DNA of 35,766 bases from Candidatus Atribacteria bacterium (GTDB lineage Bacteria > Atribacterota > Phoenicimicrobiia > Phoenicimicrobiales > Stramentimicrobiaceae). The notes under the pieces are model-generated. The model worked only from the letters and a program-made list of their open reading frames with translations, was not told where the DNA came from and searched no databases. Each line of letters begins with the position of its first letter. The stretch's first letter is position 1. Position numbers and translations under genes: made by a program. The stretch covers positions 1-35,766 of the forward strand of contig JAKQEP010000137.1 of assembly GCA_029556475.1 (NCBI GenBank), written 5' to 3'. This document shows, piece after piece, positions 27,844 through 35,568 of this stretch.

Positions 27844-29328
27844 TTAAAAAATTATTTCAGTATCAGGGTGCACTACCTGTATCCATACATTTCCAGGCTG
27901 TATAGCCAGTCTATTACCCTCTTTATTATAAAAATATGTTTTAGTTTCTAATGCTTCTTTAGACCAGGTAATCTCTTCGGACCTACCATTAAAAATGATT
28001 AACCCGGTTCCTTTACCTATAAAATCTATCGCCAGCCTACCTTCAGTATCAAGTATCTTTTTGTCACTATGCTGAATAATGATATTCTTAACCTGTATCT
28101 GTTTACCCGTTTCAGCATCTATATGGGGACTCCCATTTACTGAACGAACATATCTTTGAATTTCAGGTATATACTTATAACTAACAGTATAATTAACATT
28201 ATACTTAATATCTATCTTATTTATTTCTTTCCCGGTAAGTACTTCGTTTACATCAGTTTCAAATTGGTAATCACCTTTATTAACCATTTCAATATACCCC
28301 AGTCTCTTCGCCTCTTCCCTCAGCCTCTCCGTTGAGGTATAAAGGTTATGCGGAGGTTTTCGATCCGATGTTCTCCAAAAAGGTTGGAAATGAACCAATT
28401 CATTAATATCATCAATTCTTTCTTCTTTAATAAATATTGCTGCATCAGGACTTTCTCCAGCATGCACATATATGGCGTTATGCTCTAATGTTTTAGTAAT
28501 GAAATAGGGTCTGGCACTACGAACAGGACCGACTTTATCAGCATCCTGTGAGGCAAAAATACCTAAAAAACGGGTGATCCCGCCTTCTGCAAGTACTTCA
28601 TATACAACATTTGCTTTTTCTAATCCACTTTGAGGTCGTGAATCTTTGGCATTATCTATCATTATAGCCAGGGGCCTCTTGCCAAAAGGAGATTCTTTTT
28701 CTACCGCCCTGGGCATATTACTTAATTCACCAGGAGTTACCACTGTCCCATAGGTAGATTCAACTCGTTCTCTTCCTTCCAGGCCTAACTTTGCTTGAAT
28801 TTCAAATTCGCCTCTTTCTAATACTTCCCCTTCAATTTCTCTTCTACTGGAAATACTTGGGCTTAATTCTCGAGCCGCTACTTGCATATCACTTCTAATT
28901 GATACTTCCTCTTTAACTGGTGCCATTTCTATTTTGGCAGGAATATCAATTTCTGGCATTTTTACTTCCACCCTGGGACCACTTTCAATTTGAACTTCCT
29001 TCTTTTCTATTTTCGGTTGAGTCTCAATTTCCTGAGTTTTTGCAGGTTCAGGTAATACAGGTTCTACTCTCGGTCTAACACTTACTTCTGCAATTGGTTC
29101 CTCTCTGGTAATCTCAGGTTTAACAGTAGTTGGTTTTTGAATTGAAGGTAATTCTACCAGAGTGACCATTATCATCTCTTCAATTTCTGGAATATTTAAA
29201 AAATCAAAAGAGATTAAGTTATTAAAAGCCAGAATGAATAAGATATTTAATATTATTGAAATTAAAAATGACCGCCCTAAAAAACTTTTTGAACCTTGTT
29301 TTCTTCTTTTTGCTCTGTATCCTACCAT
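27844..29328 (-). CDS. TonB-like anchor fused to a DUF3048 domain
   Basis: The 494 residues form three parts. A basic tail leads to one membrane segment (about 19-38) and a TonB-like MIMVTLVELPS. A Pro/Glu/Lys/Val-rich linker (about 60-200) resembles TonB or TolA spacers. The C-terminal module (about 205-490) begins GKRPLAIMIDNAKDSRPQSGLEKANVVYE and contains GPVRSARPYF, the DUF3048 (YerB-like) signature. There is no TonB C-terminal domain. In the membrane segment, SIILN (24-28) stands where TonB has SxxxH, with Asn for His. The gene follows exbB-exbD by 40 bp, exactly where tonB is expected. DUF3048 has no known biochemical role. I infer that it is energised by ExbBD. The start is ATG 29328 with AAGGAAAA upstream. 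Confidence 0.88.
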   Translation of the reverse strand: MVGYRAKRRKQGSKSFLGRSFLISIILNILFILAFNNLISFDFLNIPEIEEMIMVTLVELPSIQKPTTVKPEITREEPIAEVSVRPRVEPVLPEPAKTQEIETQPKIEKKEVQIESGPRVEVKMPEIDIPAKIEMAPVKEEVSIRSDMQVAARELSPSISSRREIEGEVLERGEFEIQAKLGLEGRERVESTYGTVVTPGELSNMPRAVEKESPFGKRPLAIMIDNAKDSRPQSGLEKANVVYEVLAEGGITRFLGIFASQDADKVGPVRSARPYFITKTLEHNAIYVHAGESPDAAIFIKEERIDDINELVHFQPFWRTSDRKPPHNLYTSTERLREEAKRLGYIEMVNKGDYQFETDVNEVLTGKEINKIDIKYNVNYTVSYKYIPEIQRYVRSVNGSPHIDAETGKQIQVKNIIIQHSDKKILDTEGRLAIDFIGKGTGLIIFNGRSEEITWSKEALETKTYFYNKEGNRLAIQPGNVWIQVVHPDTEIIF

Positions 29329-29368
29329 TATTTTCCTTACTCACTTCAATTTATTAATTTATATCTCT

Positions 29369-29782
29369 TTAGAACCCTTCTTCTCTCGGTTTAGTAGCTA
29401 TGGCAATCCTTTCAATTCCACTTTTTTTGATCAGATCCATAACTCTAACTACTTTACCATGAGTAACATTTTGGTCGGCTTCTAAAACAACTAAAGGATT
29501 TGGACTATCTTTAGTCTCTTCTCTCAACTTTTCAATTAAATAATTGGGGTCAACCAAACGGTTGTTAAGATACAATACATTATTCTCCGTAATAGTAACC
29601 ACTACATTTCTTTTTTCGCTTACAGCAGCAAAATCTCCAGTGGGTAGGTCAACCTTGACCCCACTTTCAACATTTATAAAAGTAGTAGTAAGCATAAAGA
29701 AAATTAGCAATTGAAATACTACGTCTATTAAGGGAGTTAGGTCAAATTTAAGAGTTTTACTGTTGGGGTGATAAAATTTCAT
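29369..29782 (-). CDS. exbD: ExbD/TolR-family proton-channel subunit
   Basis: The 137 residues have a short cytoplasmic start, one membrane helix with the essential aspartate (D20 in LTPLIDVVFQLLIFFML), and a periplasmic domain ending in GKVVRVMDLIKKSGIERIAIAT, typical of ExbD/TolR. It pairs with ExbB to couple proton flow to movement of a TonB- or TolA-like partner. The start is ATG 29782, overlapping exbB by 26 bp, so the two are coupled. Whether it acts as ExbD or TolR cannot be told from sequence alone, since the downstream partner is neither a normal TonB nor TolA. Confidence 0.94.
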   Translation of the reverse strand: MKFYHPNSKTLKFDLTPLIDVVFQLLIFFMLTTTFINVESGVKVDLPTGDFAAVSEKRNVVVTITENNVLYLNNRLVDPNYLIEKLREETKDSPNPLVVLEADQNVTHGKVVRVMDLIKKSGIERIAIATKPREEGF

Positions 29783-30413
29783 CTATCTTTATATCCTCCT
29801 CATTAATTCCTCTTTTAACAGACAATAATTCTAAAATCTCAACACTAGTTGCTTCCATTTCTTTTATCTGTCTTTCCACCCTGTTTACAAGATAATTATA
29901 AGCAACTATAGTAGGAATGGCCACGGAAAGACCAAAAGCGGTAGTCAATAGAGCCTCTGAAATCGCTCCAGCCAGGGCCTCTGGATTTCCCACTCCAATT
30001 GCTGAGATTACCTGAAATCCTTTTATCATACCAAAAACGGTACCCAATAGCCCTAATAAGGGAGCGATATTCCCCACAGTAGCCAGTATTGGTAAATTTT
30101 TCTCTAAAATCGCTACTTCTTGATTAGCAGAATCTTCTATTGCTTCTTTAATTTCTTCCCGAGAACTGCCATACTTTAAAAGTGCGGCCAATATTATTTG
30201 TGATATGGGAGAATAATTCTTACGACAGGCAGTAATAGCAAAATTAATATTTCCCTTTCTAATCAAATCACTGATACGGTTGCCAAATTTTCGAGTAGAT
30301 GTTTTGATACTCTTAAGGAAAAACATTCTTTCAAAAAAAATAGCAATAGCAAGCAAGGAACAGAAAAATATGGGGTACATTAAAATACCGCCTTTATAAA
30401 ATAATTCAAACAT
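29757..30413 (-). CDS. exbB: MotA/TolQ/ExbB-family proton-channel subunit
   Basis: The 218 residues have three membrane segments (about 8-27, 108-130, 152-176). The diagnostic segment LATVGNIAPLLGLLGTVFGMIKGF is followed by AGAISEALLTTAFGLSVAIP. It forms the pentameric channel around ExbD. The start is ATG 30413 with a GGAGGAGG ribosome site upstream. The 130-bp region before it holds a possible extended -10 promoter. The gene opens the exbB-exbD-TonB-like/DUF3048 unit. The upstream TPR gene lies in the same direction, so read-through from it is possible. Confidence 0.95.
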   Translation of the reverse strand: MFELFYKGGILMYPIFFCSLLAIAIFFERMFFLKSIKTSTRKFGNRISDLIRKGNINFAITACRKNYSPISQIILAALLKYGSSREEIKEAIEDSANQEVAILEKNLPILATVGNIAPLLGLLGTVFGMIKGFQVISAIGVGNPEALAGAISEALLTTAFGLSVAIPTIVAYNYLVNRVERQIKEMEATSVEILELLSVKRGINEEDIKIDEILSPQQ

Positions 30414-30453
30414 TAATCAGTTGCCTCCTCCAATGTTATAAAATATCTTTATC

Positions 30454-30462
30454 TTTATATCA
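30454..30462 (-). promoter_or_regulatory. Possible extended -10 element before exbB
   Basis: TGA-TATAAA on the minus strand has the TGn extension but no recognisable -35 at the right spacing (TTGAGT lies 20 bp away). It would start a transcript about 35 nt before exbB. This is a weak call based on one box. Confidence 0.3.
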
Positions 30463-30543
30463 CATCATTAATTATCAATACTCAATCACATCAATACAAT
30501 ACTTTTTCTAATAGCATAAATAATTTTTATTCCAACCTGTTAC

Positions 30544-33500
30544 CTATTGACCCAATAGTTTCCTGATACTATATGCATAGCTTGACTCTGGACATTCCTG
30601 TAATATTTTTTCATATTTTTCCTTAGCCTGACTCTCATATCCCAATTCTTCTTGACAAATTGCAGTAATATACAGGATATCACAGACAAAGGTACCAGAA
30701 GAAAACTTATTCAGATATCTATCGCCTGTCTGTAAAGCTTTCTCATATTCTCCTTTTTTAAAGTAACTCAGACAAAGTCCATATAAAGATCCTGCTAAAT
30801 ATTGACTTTCTGGTGAATGATCAATTAATTTCTCAAAATTTAAAATACTATCAATCCACTTTTCTTCTTCTAAATTTATTTGAGCTAAGATATAAATGGC
30901 TTCTTCATAAAAACTACTCGCAGCAAAAGATTGCAAGAAATATTGTAATTTATCTTTTGCCTCACTATTTTTTTTCGCTAAAAAAAATATTTTTCCAATT
31001 AAAAAATTACTTTCTTCCACAAACTGACTCTCAGGATAAACTGAGATAAGTTTCTCAAATGATTCTATAGCCCTGGCATACTCGCCAAGATTTAAATAAC
31101 TCCAGCATATACTGTATTGTACATGGGGGGCTAAAGAATGGTAATGGTAATCTTTTAAAAATTCTTGATAATGCTGAATTGCATCTAGGTATTTTTCCTG
31201 TTTATAGAAAGTTTCTCCCAACATATATAAGGTTCTTATGGCAATTTCATCGCCGCCAGAACGGTCAATACGATAAAAATGGTCTTTCGCCTGAGAATAA
31301 TCCGCCAAACGATAGAAACTAAGTCCCATCCAATAATTAATTTCTTGTCTCATTTTCTCGGTTATAGACATATTTTCTATTTCCTGAAAAATATTAACTG
31401 CTTCCTGGTATTCACCTTTTTCGTATATTTTTTTAGCCAGTGCAAAATAACCATCCCTAACTAATGGATCATCCGGATATTTGTTAGATAATTCCTTATA
31501 AATATTAATCAAATCTTCTTCATCGTTTATTTTATTTGCCGCATCTACTTTAAGCTCTAAAGCTTCTTTGCTATCTAAGTTTTCTAATACTATCAATACA
31601 TCCTTATAACGACCAATATTATAGTAGCTTTTAGCCAGCTCTAAAGGTATTATGCCGGCTAATTCATTATCAGGAAACTGATTCATTACTTTTTCATAAT
31701 ATTTTATTGCTTCTTGTTCTGCACCTTTTTTTGAATAGGCTAAACCTAAATCAAATAACGCTTTTTCCAGTATATTACTATCTTTTGTTTTTTCAATCAA
31801 AACACTATTAATATCGATTACTCTATCATATTCTTTTTGTTCCAGAAGAATTCTTGCTAAAAGATAAAGTGATTTATCTTCAATCTGATTTTCTTTTTTT
31901 GCTAACTCTTCTAAATATTTTCTTGCTTCTTGATAATTATTTTCTCTGAATAACACAAAACTATAATAATAAATAGTTTCATCAATTAATTCAAAATCGG
32001 GGTTTGCATTAATAATATCTAAAAAATATAATTTAGCTCTATCATAAATTCCTTCCCAGAAATAAGATTGCCCTAAAAAAAATTTAATTTCGTATTGATC
32101 AAATTGCAAGGGATCTGCTGTAACTAAACTTTCATAAAGTTTAATAGTCTGGGAGTATTTTTTTTGTTTAAAATACACCATCCCCAACTTATATATTCCT
32201 TCTTGGTAAAGAGGGCTTCTGGGATAATTCTTAATCAATAATTCCAGGGCATTTTCTGCTTCTGAATAATTTCCTAACAGATAGGCACACCAACCATTTC
32301 CCAACAAAGCATTTTCATAATATTCGCTATCCACATAATTATTTACAATATATTGAAAATGCTGATTAGCTTCTTTATAACTTCCTAATTGATAAAAAGC
32401 TTCTGCTATAAGAAATCTTGCCTCTAAAAAATCTGGGCTATCTTCCAGAACTTCTTTTAATTTTTCCAATGCCATTTCATAATCACCCAGAGAATAAAAA
32501 TTGTAAGCTAATTGATAATATTCCTTTTCCCAGTCAATATCATGGAGTTGACCGCCACCAATTTTTTCTCTTTCTGCAAGATATTCATTCATCTGATTTA
32601 AATGGAAATAAGTTCGCATTAAATAAATCCTGGTCTTTTCGTAATTTGGATTTTTTTGAGCAGATTCTTTGAATTTAACCAATGCTTTTTCATACTCGCC
32701 AGAAATATAATGCTGATAACCTTCATTAAAAATCCAAACTGCTTCCCTACCAAATTCTTTTTCTTCTCTTGCTTTATTGAGGTAAATCCTGGCATTGTTA
32801 TCAAAGGAGTCTAATCGAACAGCCTCTTCAAAATGCTCAATAGAATTCTGTATATCTCCCACATGGTAATAACTTAATCCTAAAAAATAATGGGCTTCTT
32901 TAAAATCTTTGCTCAGGTTTATTGCCTGTGTCAACAACCTGATGGAATCAAAATATTTCTTGGAGCTATAGGCATTATATCCCGTGACATATAATTCATA
33001 AGCCTCCTTACCGTATATTTTAGCTTGCTGGTATTGTCTAAAAACCCATTCAATTTCTTTATTTTCCGGCTTTATTTTTTCTATTTGTTCAGCTTGTTCT
33101 AAAGCTTTGGAAACCTGTCCGGTGTCATAATAAGCCTGCATTAAAAGTACTCTGGCTTTAATATTATCTGGTTGATAAAAAATTGATTCTTCCAGATTGA
33201 CAATAGTGGAGGTAATATCTTCCTGAGTATATTTAGAATAGGCAAACCGGTATAAAGCATCTGACAGTCTGTGATAACTTACTTTAATATCACTATTGTT
33301 CCTGACAGATTCTATATACTTTTCCAGACTGGCTATTTCCCGATAAGTCCACTGAGTCCTTTCATATATCTGGGATAATAGATAATAAGCTTCAGCAAAA
33401 TATGGGTCTTCTGCTACAGCCTTTTCGCCATAATCGATTGCTTTTGCCCAGAGCGGTTTACTAGGAAAATCTACTCCTTGATATTCTACAATAGCACGTT

Positions 33501-34164
33501 TATTAAATTCTAAGGATTGATAATAATTCTGCAAAGCTAATAGTGAGGATGAAATATTTTTTTTAAGAATAGCGGATATCTCCTCATCTATAAACACATT
33601 GGCTTCCTCTAAAATGGTCAGGGCAATATTTTCTTTTAAATAGAGCAGATCTTCTGGTTTTACAGTTATTTCACGAAATTCAAACAGCTGATCATAATGA
33701 GCCTGATACATAATTAAATTGCATTTCAGGAATCCTTTCTGTTCTAAAGAAAAGTATCCGGAAAATATCAAATCAACATTTAATAAATCATTCAAAGATC
33801 TGAATAAATTCAAATCTTTCATCTCTTCCAAGGGTTTATTAGATTCAAAATCATCTAATTCTTCCATCTCTTCTAATGATATATATTTTATTTTTTCTGA
33901 TTGTAAGAAAGTTTGACTTAACATATCAGGGAATCCCCTTTCTAGCCATCGCCAATTATCTCTCCCGGTTAGATTGCTAAAATAATATACAGCAAATTTT
34001 TGTTCATCAGAAGCAATAGAGAAGGAATTGTAAACAGTGCAGAATAAAGTTAAAATTAAAATTATATGTAATAGACGGAATATTGTTATCCTTGTCAATA
34101 TATTTTTATGGAAATTTAATAATCTCCCCCTTTTTTTTATAAAAATCATCTTTTTCTTCACCAT
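30544..34164 (-). CDS. Giant exported TPR-repeat protein
   Basis: The 1206 residues begin with a basic tail and a hydrophobic signal or anchor (about 28-50). A small domain of about 130 residues follows, opening KFAVYYFSNLTGRDNWRWLERGFPDML. This resembles the CsgG/TolB-N-like fold seen as 'AV.PF.N..G......L..GL...L'. The rest (about 220-1200) is almost entirely tetratricopeptide repeats, more than twenty by eye. Several have YbgF/BamD-like spacing such as YYENALLGNGWCAYLLGNYSEAENAL. Such proteins scaffold envelope complexes. It precedes exbB-exbD and the TonB-like/DUF3048 gene, suggesting a shared machine. The start ATG 34164 lacks a good ribosome site and later starts are possible. The function is unknown. 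Confidence 0.82.
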   Translation of the reverse strand: MVKKKMIFIKKRGRLLNFHKNILTRITIFRLLHIILILTLFCTVYNSFSIASDEQKFAVYYFSNLTGRDNWRWLERGFPDMLSQTFLQSEKIKYISLEEMEELDDFESNKPLEEMKDLNLFRSLNDLLNVDLIFSGYFSLEQKGFLKCNLIMYQAHYDQLFEFREITVKPEDLLYLKENIALTILEEANVFIDEEISAILKKNISSSLLALQNYYQSLEFNKRAIVEYQGVDFPSKPLWAKAIDYGEKAVAEDPYFAEAYYLLSQIYERTQWTYREIASLEKYIESVRNNSDIKVSYHRLSDALYRFAYSKYTQEDITSTIVNLEESIFYQPDNIKARVLLMQAYYDTGQVSKALEQAEQIEKIKPENKEIEWVFRQYQQAKIYGKEAYELYVTGYNAYSSKKYFDSIRLLTQAINLSKDFKEAHYFLGLSYYHVGDIQNSIEHFEEAVRLDSFDNNARIYLNKAREEKEFGREAVWIFNEGYQHYISGEYEKALVKFKESAQKNPNYEKTRIYLMRTYFHLNQMNEYLAEREKIGGGQLHDIDWEKEYYQLAYNFYSLGDYEMALEKLKEVLEDSPDFLEARFLIAEAFYQLGSYKEANQHFQYIVNNYVDSEYYENALLGNGWCAYLLGNYSEAENALELLIKNYPRSPLYQEGIYKLGMVYFKQKKYSQTIKLYESLVTADPLQFDQYEIKFFLGQSYFWEGIYDRAKLYFLDIINANPDFELIDETIYYYSFVLFRENNYQEARKYLEELAKKENQIEDKSLYLLARILLEQKEYDRVIDINSVLIEKTKDSNILEKALFDLGLAYSKKGAEQEAIKYYEKVMNQFPDNELAGIIPLELAKSYYNIGRYKDVLIVLENLDSKEALELKVDAANKINDEEDLINIYKELSNKYPDDPLVRDGYFALAKKIYEKGEYQEAVNIFQEIENMSITEKMRQEINYWMGLSFYRLADYSQAKDHFYRIDRSGGDEIAIRTLYMLGETFYKQEKYLDAIQHYQEFLKDYHYHSLAPHVQYSICWSYLNLGEYARAIESFEKLISVYPESQFVEESNFLIGKIFFLAKKNSEAKDKLQYFLQSFAASSFYEEAIYILAQINLEEEKWIDSILNFEKLIDHSPESQYLAGSLYGLCLSYFKKGEYEKALQTGDRYLNKFSSGTFVCDILYITAICQEELGYESQAKEKYEKILQECPESSYAYSIRKLLGQ

Positions 34165-34287: not shown

Positions 34288-35568
34288 TTATCTTAAAAAA
34301 AAATAAAATTCTTTATTATCAATTCTTACAATATCACCCTCTTGAATCCCTTTCTTCCTAAGTGCTTTTTCCACTCCTGATGATTTTATTTTTTCCTGAA
34401 AATATTTTAAAGCTTGAGGATTATCTAAATCGAATTGTCGAACTAATCTAACCACTCTTTCTCCCTCTATTACAAATTTTTTTCCTTCTTTTCTAATGAT
34501 AAAAGGTGGTTCATATTGGTAGCGAGTTATCTTGTCCCCTGAGGGTAAAACAGAAGATATCTCATTTCTTTCCGCAAGTTTAATGGTTTGGAATATCTGA
34601 AAAATTAACTCTGGCAAACCTTCCCCTGTGATTGCAGATACACTAATTATATTTTTGCCTTCTTTTAAAAATGCTTTTTCAATCTTTTCAATTTTTTCCT
34701 TTACTTCTGGCAAGTCACATTTATTAACTACTAATAACTCTTTTTTCCCCTGCAATGAAGAGGAAAAATGATTCAATTCATTCCTTATAGCGAGATAGTC
34801 AGTCATTATATTGTTTACAGATAACCTTACTCCATCAATAACATGAACAATAACTTTCGTTCTTTCAATATGTTTTAAAAAACGAATTCCTAAACCCGCC
34901 CCCCTGCTAGCCCCTTCAATGAGTCCCGGGGTATCAGAAAGGATGAATTGGTTTCCCTCATTAACAGATACAACTCCTAAATGCGGTTCAAGAGTAGTAA
35001 AAGGATAATCTGCAATTTTGGGTTTAGCAGCAGACATTTTAGATAAAAGTGTCGATTTACCAACATTGGGAAAGCCTATTAAAGCTGCATCTGCTACTAA
35101 TTTCAAATTAAGTTTAATAGTTTTTTCTTCCCCGGGCTCTCCTCTTTGTGCAAACTTGGGTGAACGACGGATTGAATTTTTAAAACGATAGTTACCCTTT
35201 CCTCCTAGCCCACCACAAGCAATACATATTCTCTCCTCAGATTGAGATAAATCAGCAATAATGTTGCCATCTCCAACGTCTTCAAGTATTGTTCCGACCG
35301 GAACTTTTAAGAACAAATCATTACCATTCTTACCATTTTTTTTATGACTACTTCCGTTTTCTCCATTTTCTGCTTTGCGATGAGGTTTCCGGTAGTATTC
35401 AATTAAGGTCTTGATTTGGGAGTCAGCTTGAATATATATATTTCCACCCTTCCCACCATCTCCACCGTCAGGACCTCCTTTGGGCACAAATCGTTCTCTT
35501 CGAAAACTGACGCAACCATTACCACCTTTCCCAGCTTTAACATTAATAATAACTTCATCAATAAACAT
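34288..35568 (-). CDS. obg: GTPase Obg (ObgE/CgtA)
   Basis: Obg is an essential ribosome-associated GTPase linked to 50S assembly and stress. The 426 residues have all three domains. The glycine-rich Obg fold (1-158) contains GGPDGGDGGKGGN. The G domain has GFPNVGKSTLLS, DTPGLIEGAS and NKCDLPE. The C-terminal OCT domain follows (about 345-426). The start is ATG 35568 with AAAAGG upstream. In many bacteria obg follows rplU-rpmA. Here the 3' end of a group II intron lies 58 bp upstream, and no promoter is visible in between, so transcription must come from within or beyond the intron. Confidence 0.97.
   Translation of the reverse strand: MFIDEVIINVKAGKGGNGCVSFRRERFVPKGGPDGGDGGKGGNIYIQADSQIKTLIEYYRKPHRKAENGENGSSHKKNGKNGNDLFLKVPVGTILEDVGDGNIIADLSQSEERICIACGGLGGKGNYRFKNSIRRSPKFAQRGEPGEEKTIKLNLKLVADAALIGFPNVGKSTLLSKMSAAKPKIADYPFTTLEPHLGVVSVNEGNQFILSDTPGLIEGASRGAGLGIRFLKHIERTKVIVHVIDGVRLSVNNIMTDYLAIRNELNHFSSSLQGKKELLVVNKCDLPEVKEKIEKIEKAFLKEGKNIISVSAITGEGLPELIFQIFQTIKLAERNEISSVLPSGDKITRYQYEPPFIIRKEGKKFVIEGERVVRLVRQFDLDNPQALKYFQEKIKSSGVEKALRKKGIQEGDIVRIDNKEFYFFLR

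Follow-up and report, generated by a model that had tools for sequence, protein, structure and literature searches.

The 35,766-nt stretch of DNA analyzed here (the window) comes from a 2.03-Mb Atribacterota metagenome-assembled genome (MAG) that is 84% complete. On its minus strand, the order of transcription is obgE, a gene for a 1206-residue tetratricopeptide repeat (TPR) protein, exbB, exbD, a gene for a fusion protein, xerD and a purine nucleoside phosphorylase gene (Table 1). The first-pass annotation had read the TPR gene, exbB, exbD and the fusion gene as one block, and all four ORFs are present on the minus strand where it placed them. The exbB and exbD genes overlap by 26 nt, and gaps of 40 nt and 17 nt separate exbD from the fusion gene and the fusion gene from xerD, respectively; because of this close spacing, exbB, exbD and the fusion gene are likely co-transcribed. 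The spacer between the TPR gene and exbB is 130 nt. Promoter-like sites occur at background level (37 found, 37.1 expected).

The fusion protein, a candidate force transducer, consists of a basic cytoplasmic tail, one transmembrane (TM) helix, a disordered linker, and the domains DUF3048 and DUF3048_C.

Table 1. Features of the four-gene block and of related loci. Residue numbers refer to the encoded protein; positions without a locus designation are those of the window.
Feature	Position	Strand	Evidence or remark
obgE	34288-35568	(-)	precedes the TPR gene in transcription order
TPR protein gene, 1206 aa	30544-34164	(-)	ORF call; Pfam, many TPRs
TolB_N-like domain of TPR protein, about residues 57-187	33604-33996	(-)	family profile and structure model
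exbB, 218 aa	29757-30413	(-)	Pfam MotA_ExbB, 5.7e-36
exbD, 137 aa	29369-29782	(-)	Pfam ExbD, 2.8e-32
Fusion gene, 494 aa	27844-29328	(-)	ORF call, Pfam, structure model
TM helix of fusion, residues 19-38	29215-29274	(-)	alignment of 40 fusions and model
Strand-like segment MIMVTLVEL, residues 52-60	29149-29175	(-)	conserved in fusion alignment
Pro/Glu/Lys-rich periplasmic linker, residues 40-208	28705-29211	(-)	model, pLDDT mostly <50
DUF3048 (PF11258), residues 212-345	28294-28695	(-)	Pfam, 3.9e-48; superfamily polar residues intact
DUF3048_C (PF17479), residues 372-483	27880-28215	(-)	Pfam, 6.9e-30; 2PSB structural match
Duplicated exbB-exbD pair, family f4	L069 1660-2807 and 6408-7555; L074 2397-3469 and 7089-8161
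Tandem arrays in exbD-fusion gap, family f2	L055 7312-7348; L049 11072-11115
lgt-like gene, families f3-f6	L060 11145-11909; L053 10714-11466
Canonical Ton cluster, window's genome	L095 1819-9224 (G000:C106)
Stand-alone DUF3048 paralogue	L096 6729-7269 (G000:C153); L110 5217-6149; L111 6244-7263; L112 5883-6815
Secreted DUF3048 gene, another phylum	L109 5546-7402

Conservation of the block and distribution of DUF3048

Of 50 Atribacterota genomes from seven families, about 43 contain a full-length fusion; most of the 50 are incomplete MAGs, and those without a fusion are mostly incomplete. Neighbors were counted on the contigs on either side of the fusion gene. The next upstream gene is exbD at all 34 loci whose contig extends to it, and the order TPR-exbB-exbD-fusion is found at all 29 loci with contigs reaching further. 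At the remaining six loci, the contig ends before the next gene, in two cases inside an exbD fragment; in one of the six (L055), 478 nt of non-coding DNA precede the contig end, and gaps in its relatives from the same family reach 465 nt. The proposal of the first-pass annotation that such fusions neighbor exbBD is thus supported, and the contrary outcome that it had named, fusions occurring mostly without exbBD, was not found. The gene preceding the TPR gene varies, being obgE in families f1 and f2 and pstB in the contigs read from families f3-f6, so that the four genes stay together through an altered neighborhood. The operon is single-copy and core in Atribacterota, and its recurrence in seven families indicates that the block is not a chance arrangement.

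Several local variants were also observed. Two genera of family f4 carry two copies of the exbB-exbD pair, one on each side of the TPR gene. The copies are 100% identical within a genome, which could be due to concerted evolution or to an assembly effect; in several further genomes from one of the two genera, contigs stop at or near the upstream side of the fusion gene, as a true repeat would cause. In family f2, the exbD-fusion gap is mostly enlarged to 200-465 bp and contains 8- and 16-bp tandem arrays. In families f3-f6, pst phosphate-transport genes lie ahead of the TPR gene, and several contigs carry an lgt-like gene (assigned by reading its sequence) between the fusion gene and xerD.

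Outside Atribacterota, DUF3048 itself was found in 5 of 192 genomes and, in one further phylum, in 30 of 40; those of the proteins that were read are secreted, are lipoproteins or have a simple anchor. Profiles of ExbB and ExbD were run against about 30 of these loci, over flanks of 1.5-7 kb, and gave no match; one of the loci (L153) yielded no call at all. A wide occurrence of the fusion in other lineages was rejected, since among 382 genomes sampled around another phylum, those that match from the anchor through the rest of the protein all belong to Atribacterota. The outside-phylum samples, which overlap and are a non-exhaustive selection of several hundred genomes, contain no full-length fusion outside Atribacterota. 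One other phylum has secreted DUF3048 proteins of 440-740 residues (L109 and L134-L158); the gene at L109 is flanked by corC/DUF502-like genes on one side and by era on the other, which resembles the surroundings of a stand-alone paralogue in Atribacterota (see below).

Motor, anchor and the separate Ton system

ExbB and ExbD both match their family profiles and carry the residues expected of a proton motor: the pore threonines of ExbB (T125 and T157/T158), together with S19 on helix 1, and the equivalent of the proton-carrying aspartate of ExbD (D20) are conserved. Their highest scores are against the tolQ and tolR models.

Among 40 aligned fusions, S24 of the TM helix is present in all and N28 in 39, the sole exception being a histidine in the deepest family (f7). 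These residues occupy the Ser-x3-His position of the SHLS motif of TonB and TolA, so that Ser-x3-Asn/His is kept, with the leucine and second serine out of place. Within this motif, which docks TonB and TolA on ExbB and TolQ, conservation is highest at Ser-x3-His (PMC12215075). Ser-x3-His is present in all 10 TonB_C proteins of Atribacterota, which served as a positive control. Asparagine is reported to substitute fully for His20 of TonB. The fusion and TonB anchors align in the Ser-x3-His register with P values of 0.00024 (motif-trimmed ends) and 0.0022 (untrimmed), against 0.04-0.43 for control alignments of the fusion anchor with other N-terminal segments of the operon. In absolute terms, the two profiles resemble each other weakly (HHalign probability 13-44%), and the alignment is supportive of a TonB-like anchor, not conclusive. 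The Ser-x3-Asn/His signature is in line with the TonB-like anchor proposed at first pass. Shortly after the TM helix, the conserved strand-like segment MIMVTLVEL, with invariant E59 and P61, sits where TonB and TolA have their motor box (defined in PMC12204202); in the model it is a low-confidence coil with no strand predicted. The linker of about 170 residues is mostly disordered.

The window's genome also has a canonical Ton cluster on another contig (C106), with BtuF/C/D-like genes, a 629-residue TonB-dependent transporter (TBDT), a TonB with Ser-x3-His, exbB and exbD. A separate tonB that uses the operon's ExbBD had been named at first pass as grounds against the proposal. This possibility was rejected, as the tonB on C106 has its own exbB, exbD and TBDT, and it is absent from most fusion-bearing genomes. 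TonB_C was detected in 10 and the TBDT plug in 13 of the 50 Atribacterota genomes, compared to the nearly universal fusion. The single-contig genomes G005 and G025 each contain one exbD, located within the fusion operon, and neither TonB_C nor a TBDT plug.

These data bear on two alternative explanations. If the fusion were a plain membrane-anchored YerB that adjoins exbBD by accident, with ExbBD serving another transducer, it would resemble the protein at L106, a membrane-anchored DUF3048 without exbBD, and the true TonB of the window's genome would be at hand as a client. The unbroken adjacency to exbD (34 of 34), the conserved Ser-x3-Asn/His, the exbBD of the Ton cluster's own, and the two genomes with a single exbD and no TonB_C strongly disfavor this explanation, which we regard as very unlikely. 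The other, a TonB variant for nutrient uptake via outer-membrane transporters, would account for the ExbBD pair and the TonB-like anchor; however, the fusion has no TonB_C, and TBDT plugs are confined to about a quarter of the genomes that were searched, a distribution that makes such a role highly improbable. The proposed coupling of the fusion to the ExbB-ExbD motor is, in our assessment, well supported.

The DUF3048 tip and the TPR protein

As the first-pass annotation had claimed, the C-terminus of the fusion is DUF3048 in place of TonB_C or TolA_III: Pfam and the model both show complete DUF3048 and DUF3048_C domains. A TonB_C or TolA_III C-terminal domain was looked for and is absent, and the fusion is therefore not classed as a TonB or TolA; neither is the operon assigned to Tol-Pal. 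The fusion profile matches Bacillus subtilis YerB (PDB code 2PSB) at 3e-67, and the modelled tip superposes on the same structure with a TM-score of 0.85 by target length, the structurally matched residues being 36% identical. The structure search with the modelled tip matched nothing except 2PSB, and a von Willebrand A (vWA) fold was not found. Eleven polar residues (R218, N226, Q233, E244, E248, R253, R270, S271, R273, H289 and R319) are kept in the fusion and are identical in nine compared DUF3048 proteins (YerB, five from other phyla and three stand-alone Atribacterota paralogues), which indicates that the DUF3048 site is not decayed in the fusion.

Identity of these residues across such different proteins may also suggest that the tip is an enzyme acting on peptidoglycan or a wall polymer, which the motor merely positions or gates. 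On the other hand, the closest fold is only YerB and a catalytic triad was not recognized, so that an enzymatic tip seems rather unlikely. We know of no catalytic activity of DUF3048, and no function is given where the literature mentions 'DUF3048'. YerB-type proteins are lipoproteins in monoderms; therefore a ligand that both monoderms and diderms possess, for example peptidoglycan or another polymer of the wall, is likelier, and the target of the tip is more likely the cell wall than an outer-membrane receptor.

An additional DUF3048 gene, which stands alone close to corC/recO/glyQ-like genes, occurs in families f1 and f2 and has lost the PHN motif. In the window's genome, this paralogue (on contig C153) is reduced to two fragments.

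The TPR protein is predicted to be secreted, with a type I signal peptide and no lipobox seen. Its repeats are CpoB-like, scoring 209 bits against tol_pal_ybgF. A Pfam search with the N-terminus of the window's protein by itself gave no match; the N-terminal domain could be assigned only with the help of a family alignment and a structure model. TolB_N is the best non-TPR Pfam family (E 0.0083 in 2 of 15 members), and the model (pLDDT 89) has only TolB among its top 14 PDB matches (E 1e-5 to 1.5e-4), followed by matches that include GNA1162, FlgT, LpoB and CsgG. The likeness to TolB is structural only (TM about 0.5, about 12% identity); HHalign against Escherichia coli TolB alone was weak (P 0.018) with the correct register, and a PDB search using the domain profile gave mainly TPR matches.

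Omp85 is present in 48 of the 50 genomes, which supports an outer membrane and thus a diderm envelope. Three membrane-like layers have been described in Atribacter laminatus, with an assignment that is not certain (PMC7736352). The OmpA domain occurs in 27 of the 50 genomes, many times in ORFs of about 240 residues (the size of MotB), and is absent from the window's genome at its 84% completeness and from the single-contig G005.

The operon might accordingly be read as a counterpart of Tol-Pal, which, in a lineage that lacks Pal, takes over from TolA, TolB, CpoB and Pal, and whose motor would move the DUF3048 tip against the TolB_N-TPR protein and so control outer-membrane attachment in division. 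The best scores of ExbB and ExbD, the CpoB-like repeats, the TolB_N-like domain, the presence of Omp85 together with the two genomes devoid of OmpA domains, and the single-copy, core nature of the operon are all consistent with such a role. However, there is no TolA C-terminal domain, TolB propeller or Pal in the operon, and the TolB_N fold is common to LpoB, FlgT, GNA1162 and CsgG; we consider a Tol-Pal counterpart plausible but improbable.

Comparison with known force transducers

Among described systems, the nearest are the predicted transducers with a vWA tip, whose genes adjoin TPR-tolQ-tolR (Williams-Jones et al. 2025, PMC12204202). The vWA transducers have a TM helix with an SHLS-type motif, which the Ser-x3-Asn/His of the fusion resembles; like the fusion, they have a disordered linker and a non-TonB globular tip and lie next to ExbBD/TolQR homologues and a TPR gene. 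Their tip is a vWA fold, whereas that of the Atribacterota protein is DUF3048. They were reported in Proteobacteria, PVC, Bacteroidetes and Rhodothermaota, and the PVC loci contain two tolR genes instead of one; 'DUF' is absent from the main text of that report (PMC12204202). The TonB-ExbB-ExbD system is alike in its motor proteins, anchor topology and Pro-rich linker, but the fusion operon is without TonB_C or a receptor, and the anchor histidine is replaced by asparagine in 39 of 40 fusions. With Tol-Pal (TolQRA, TolB, Pal and CpoB), the operon shares its conservation as a unit, the motor, a transducer, the TolB_N-like domain and the CpoB-like TPRs; in contrast to Tol-Pal, it is without TolA domain III, the TolB propeller and Pal, and its TolB_N-like and TPR parts are joined in one protein. 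YerB shares the whole globular tip and the polar site, but is a stand-alone Bacillales lipoprotein without a motor. The operon thus probably encodes a Tol-like system driven by the proton motive force (PMF), without the C-terminal domain of TolA or TonB, the TolB propeller or Pal.

We consider it probable that the four genes specify a dedicated force transducer, powered by the PMF and similar to TonB-ExbBD and TolQRA, with a YerB tip. ExbB and ExbD would form a proton motor in the cytoplasmic membrane, on which the Ser-x3-Asn helix would dock the fusion. The linker could extend the fusion into the periplasm, where the tip would be pulled or repositioned by proton flow, and the secreted TPR protein, with its TolB_N-like domain followed by CpoB/BamD-like TPRs, may act as a periplasmic partner or scaffold. 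The tip would most likely grip or process a cell-wall component rather than an outer-membrane receptor, given that lipoproteins of monoderms also retain the DUF3048 site. If so, the system would have a role in envelope constriction, in tethering or in remodelling of the wall.

PMF-driven transducers are known with TonB and TolA tips and, by prediction, with vWA tips; a YerB tip would be a further kind, and its phylum-wide occurrence indicates that a different type of tip has been added to the motor-plus-anchor module. Non-Gracilicute diderms lack Tol-Pal (PMC12204202); this operon is a concrete candidate for energizing their outer membrane in division. More tentatively, the system could represent a third class of periplasmic force transducer that was already present in the ancestor of Atribacterota, in which an ExbBD-driven DUF3048 tip and a TolB_N-TPR partner do the work of Tol-Pal in diderms without Pal, and which would give a first functional handle on the widespread DUF3048 family as a domain that binds or processes the wall. 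The link to a motor adds interest to the search for a ligand of DUF3048, which also occurs in Firmicutes and several further phyla, and the four-gene set suggests an undescribed way of powering cell-wall work.
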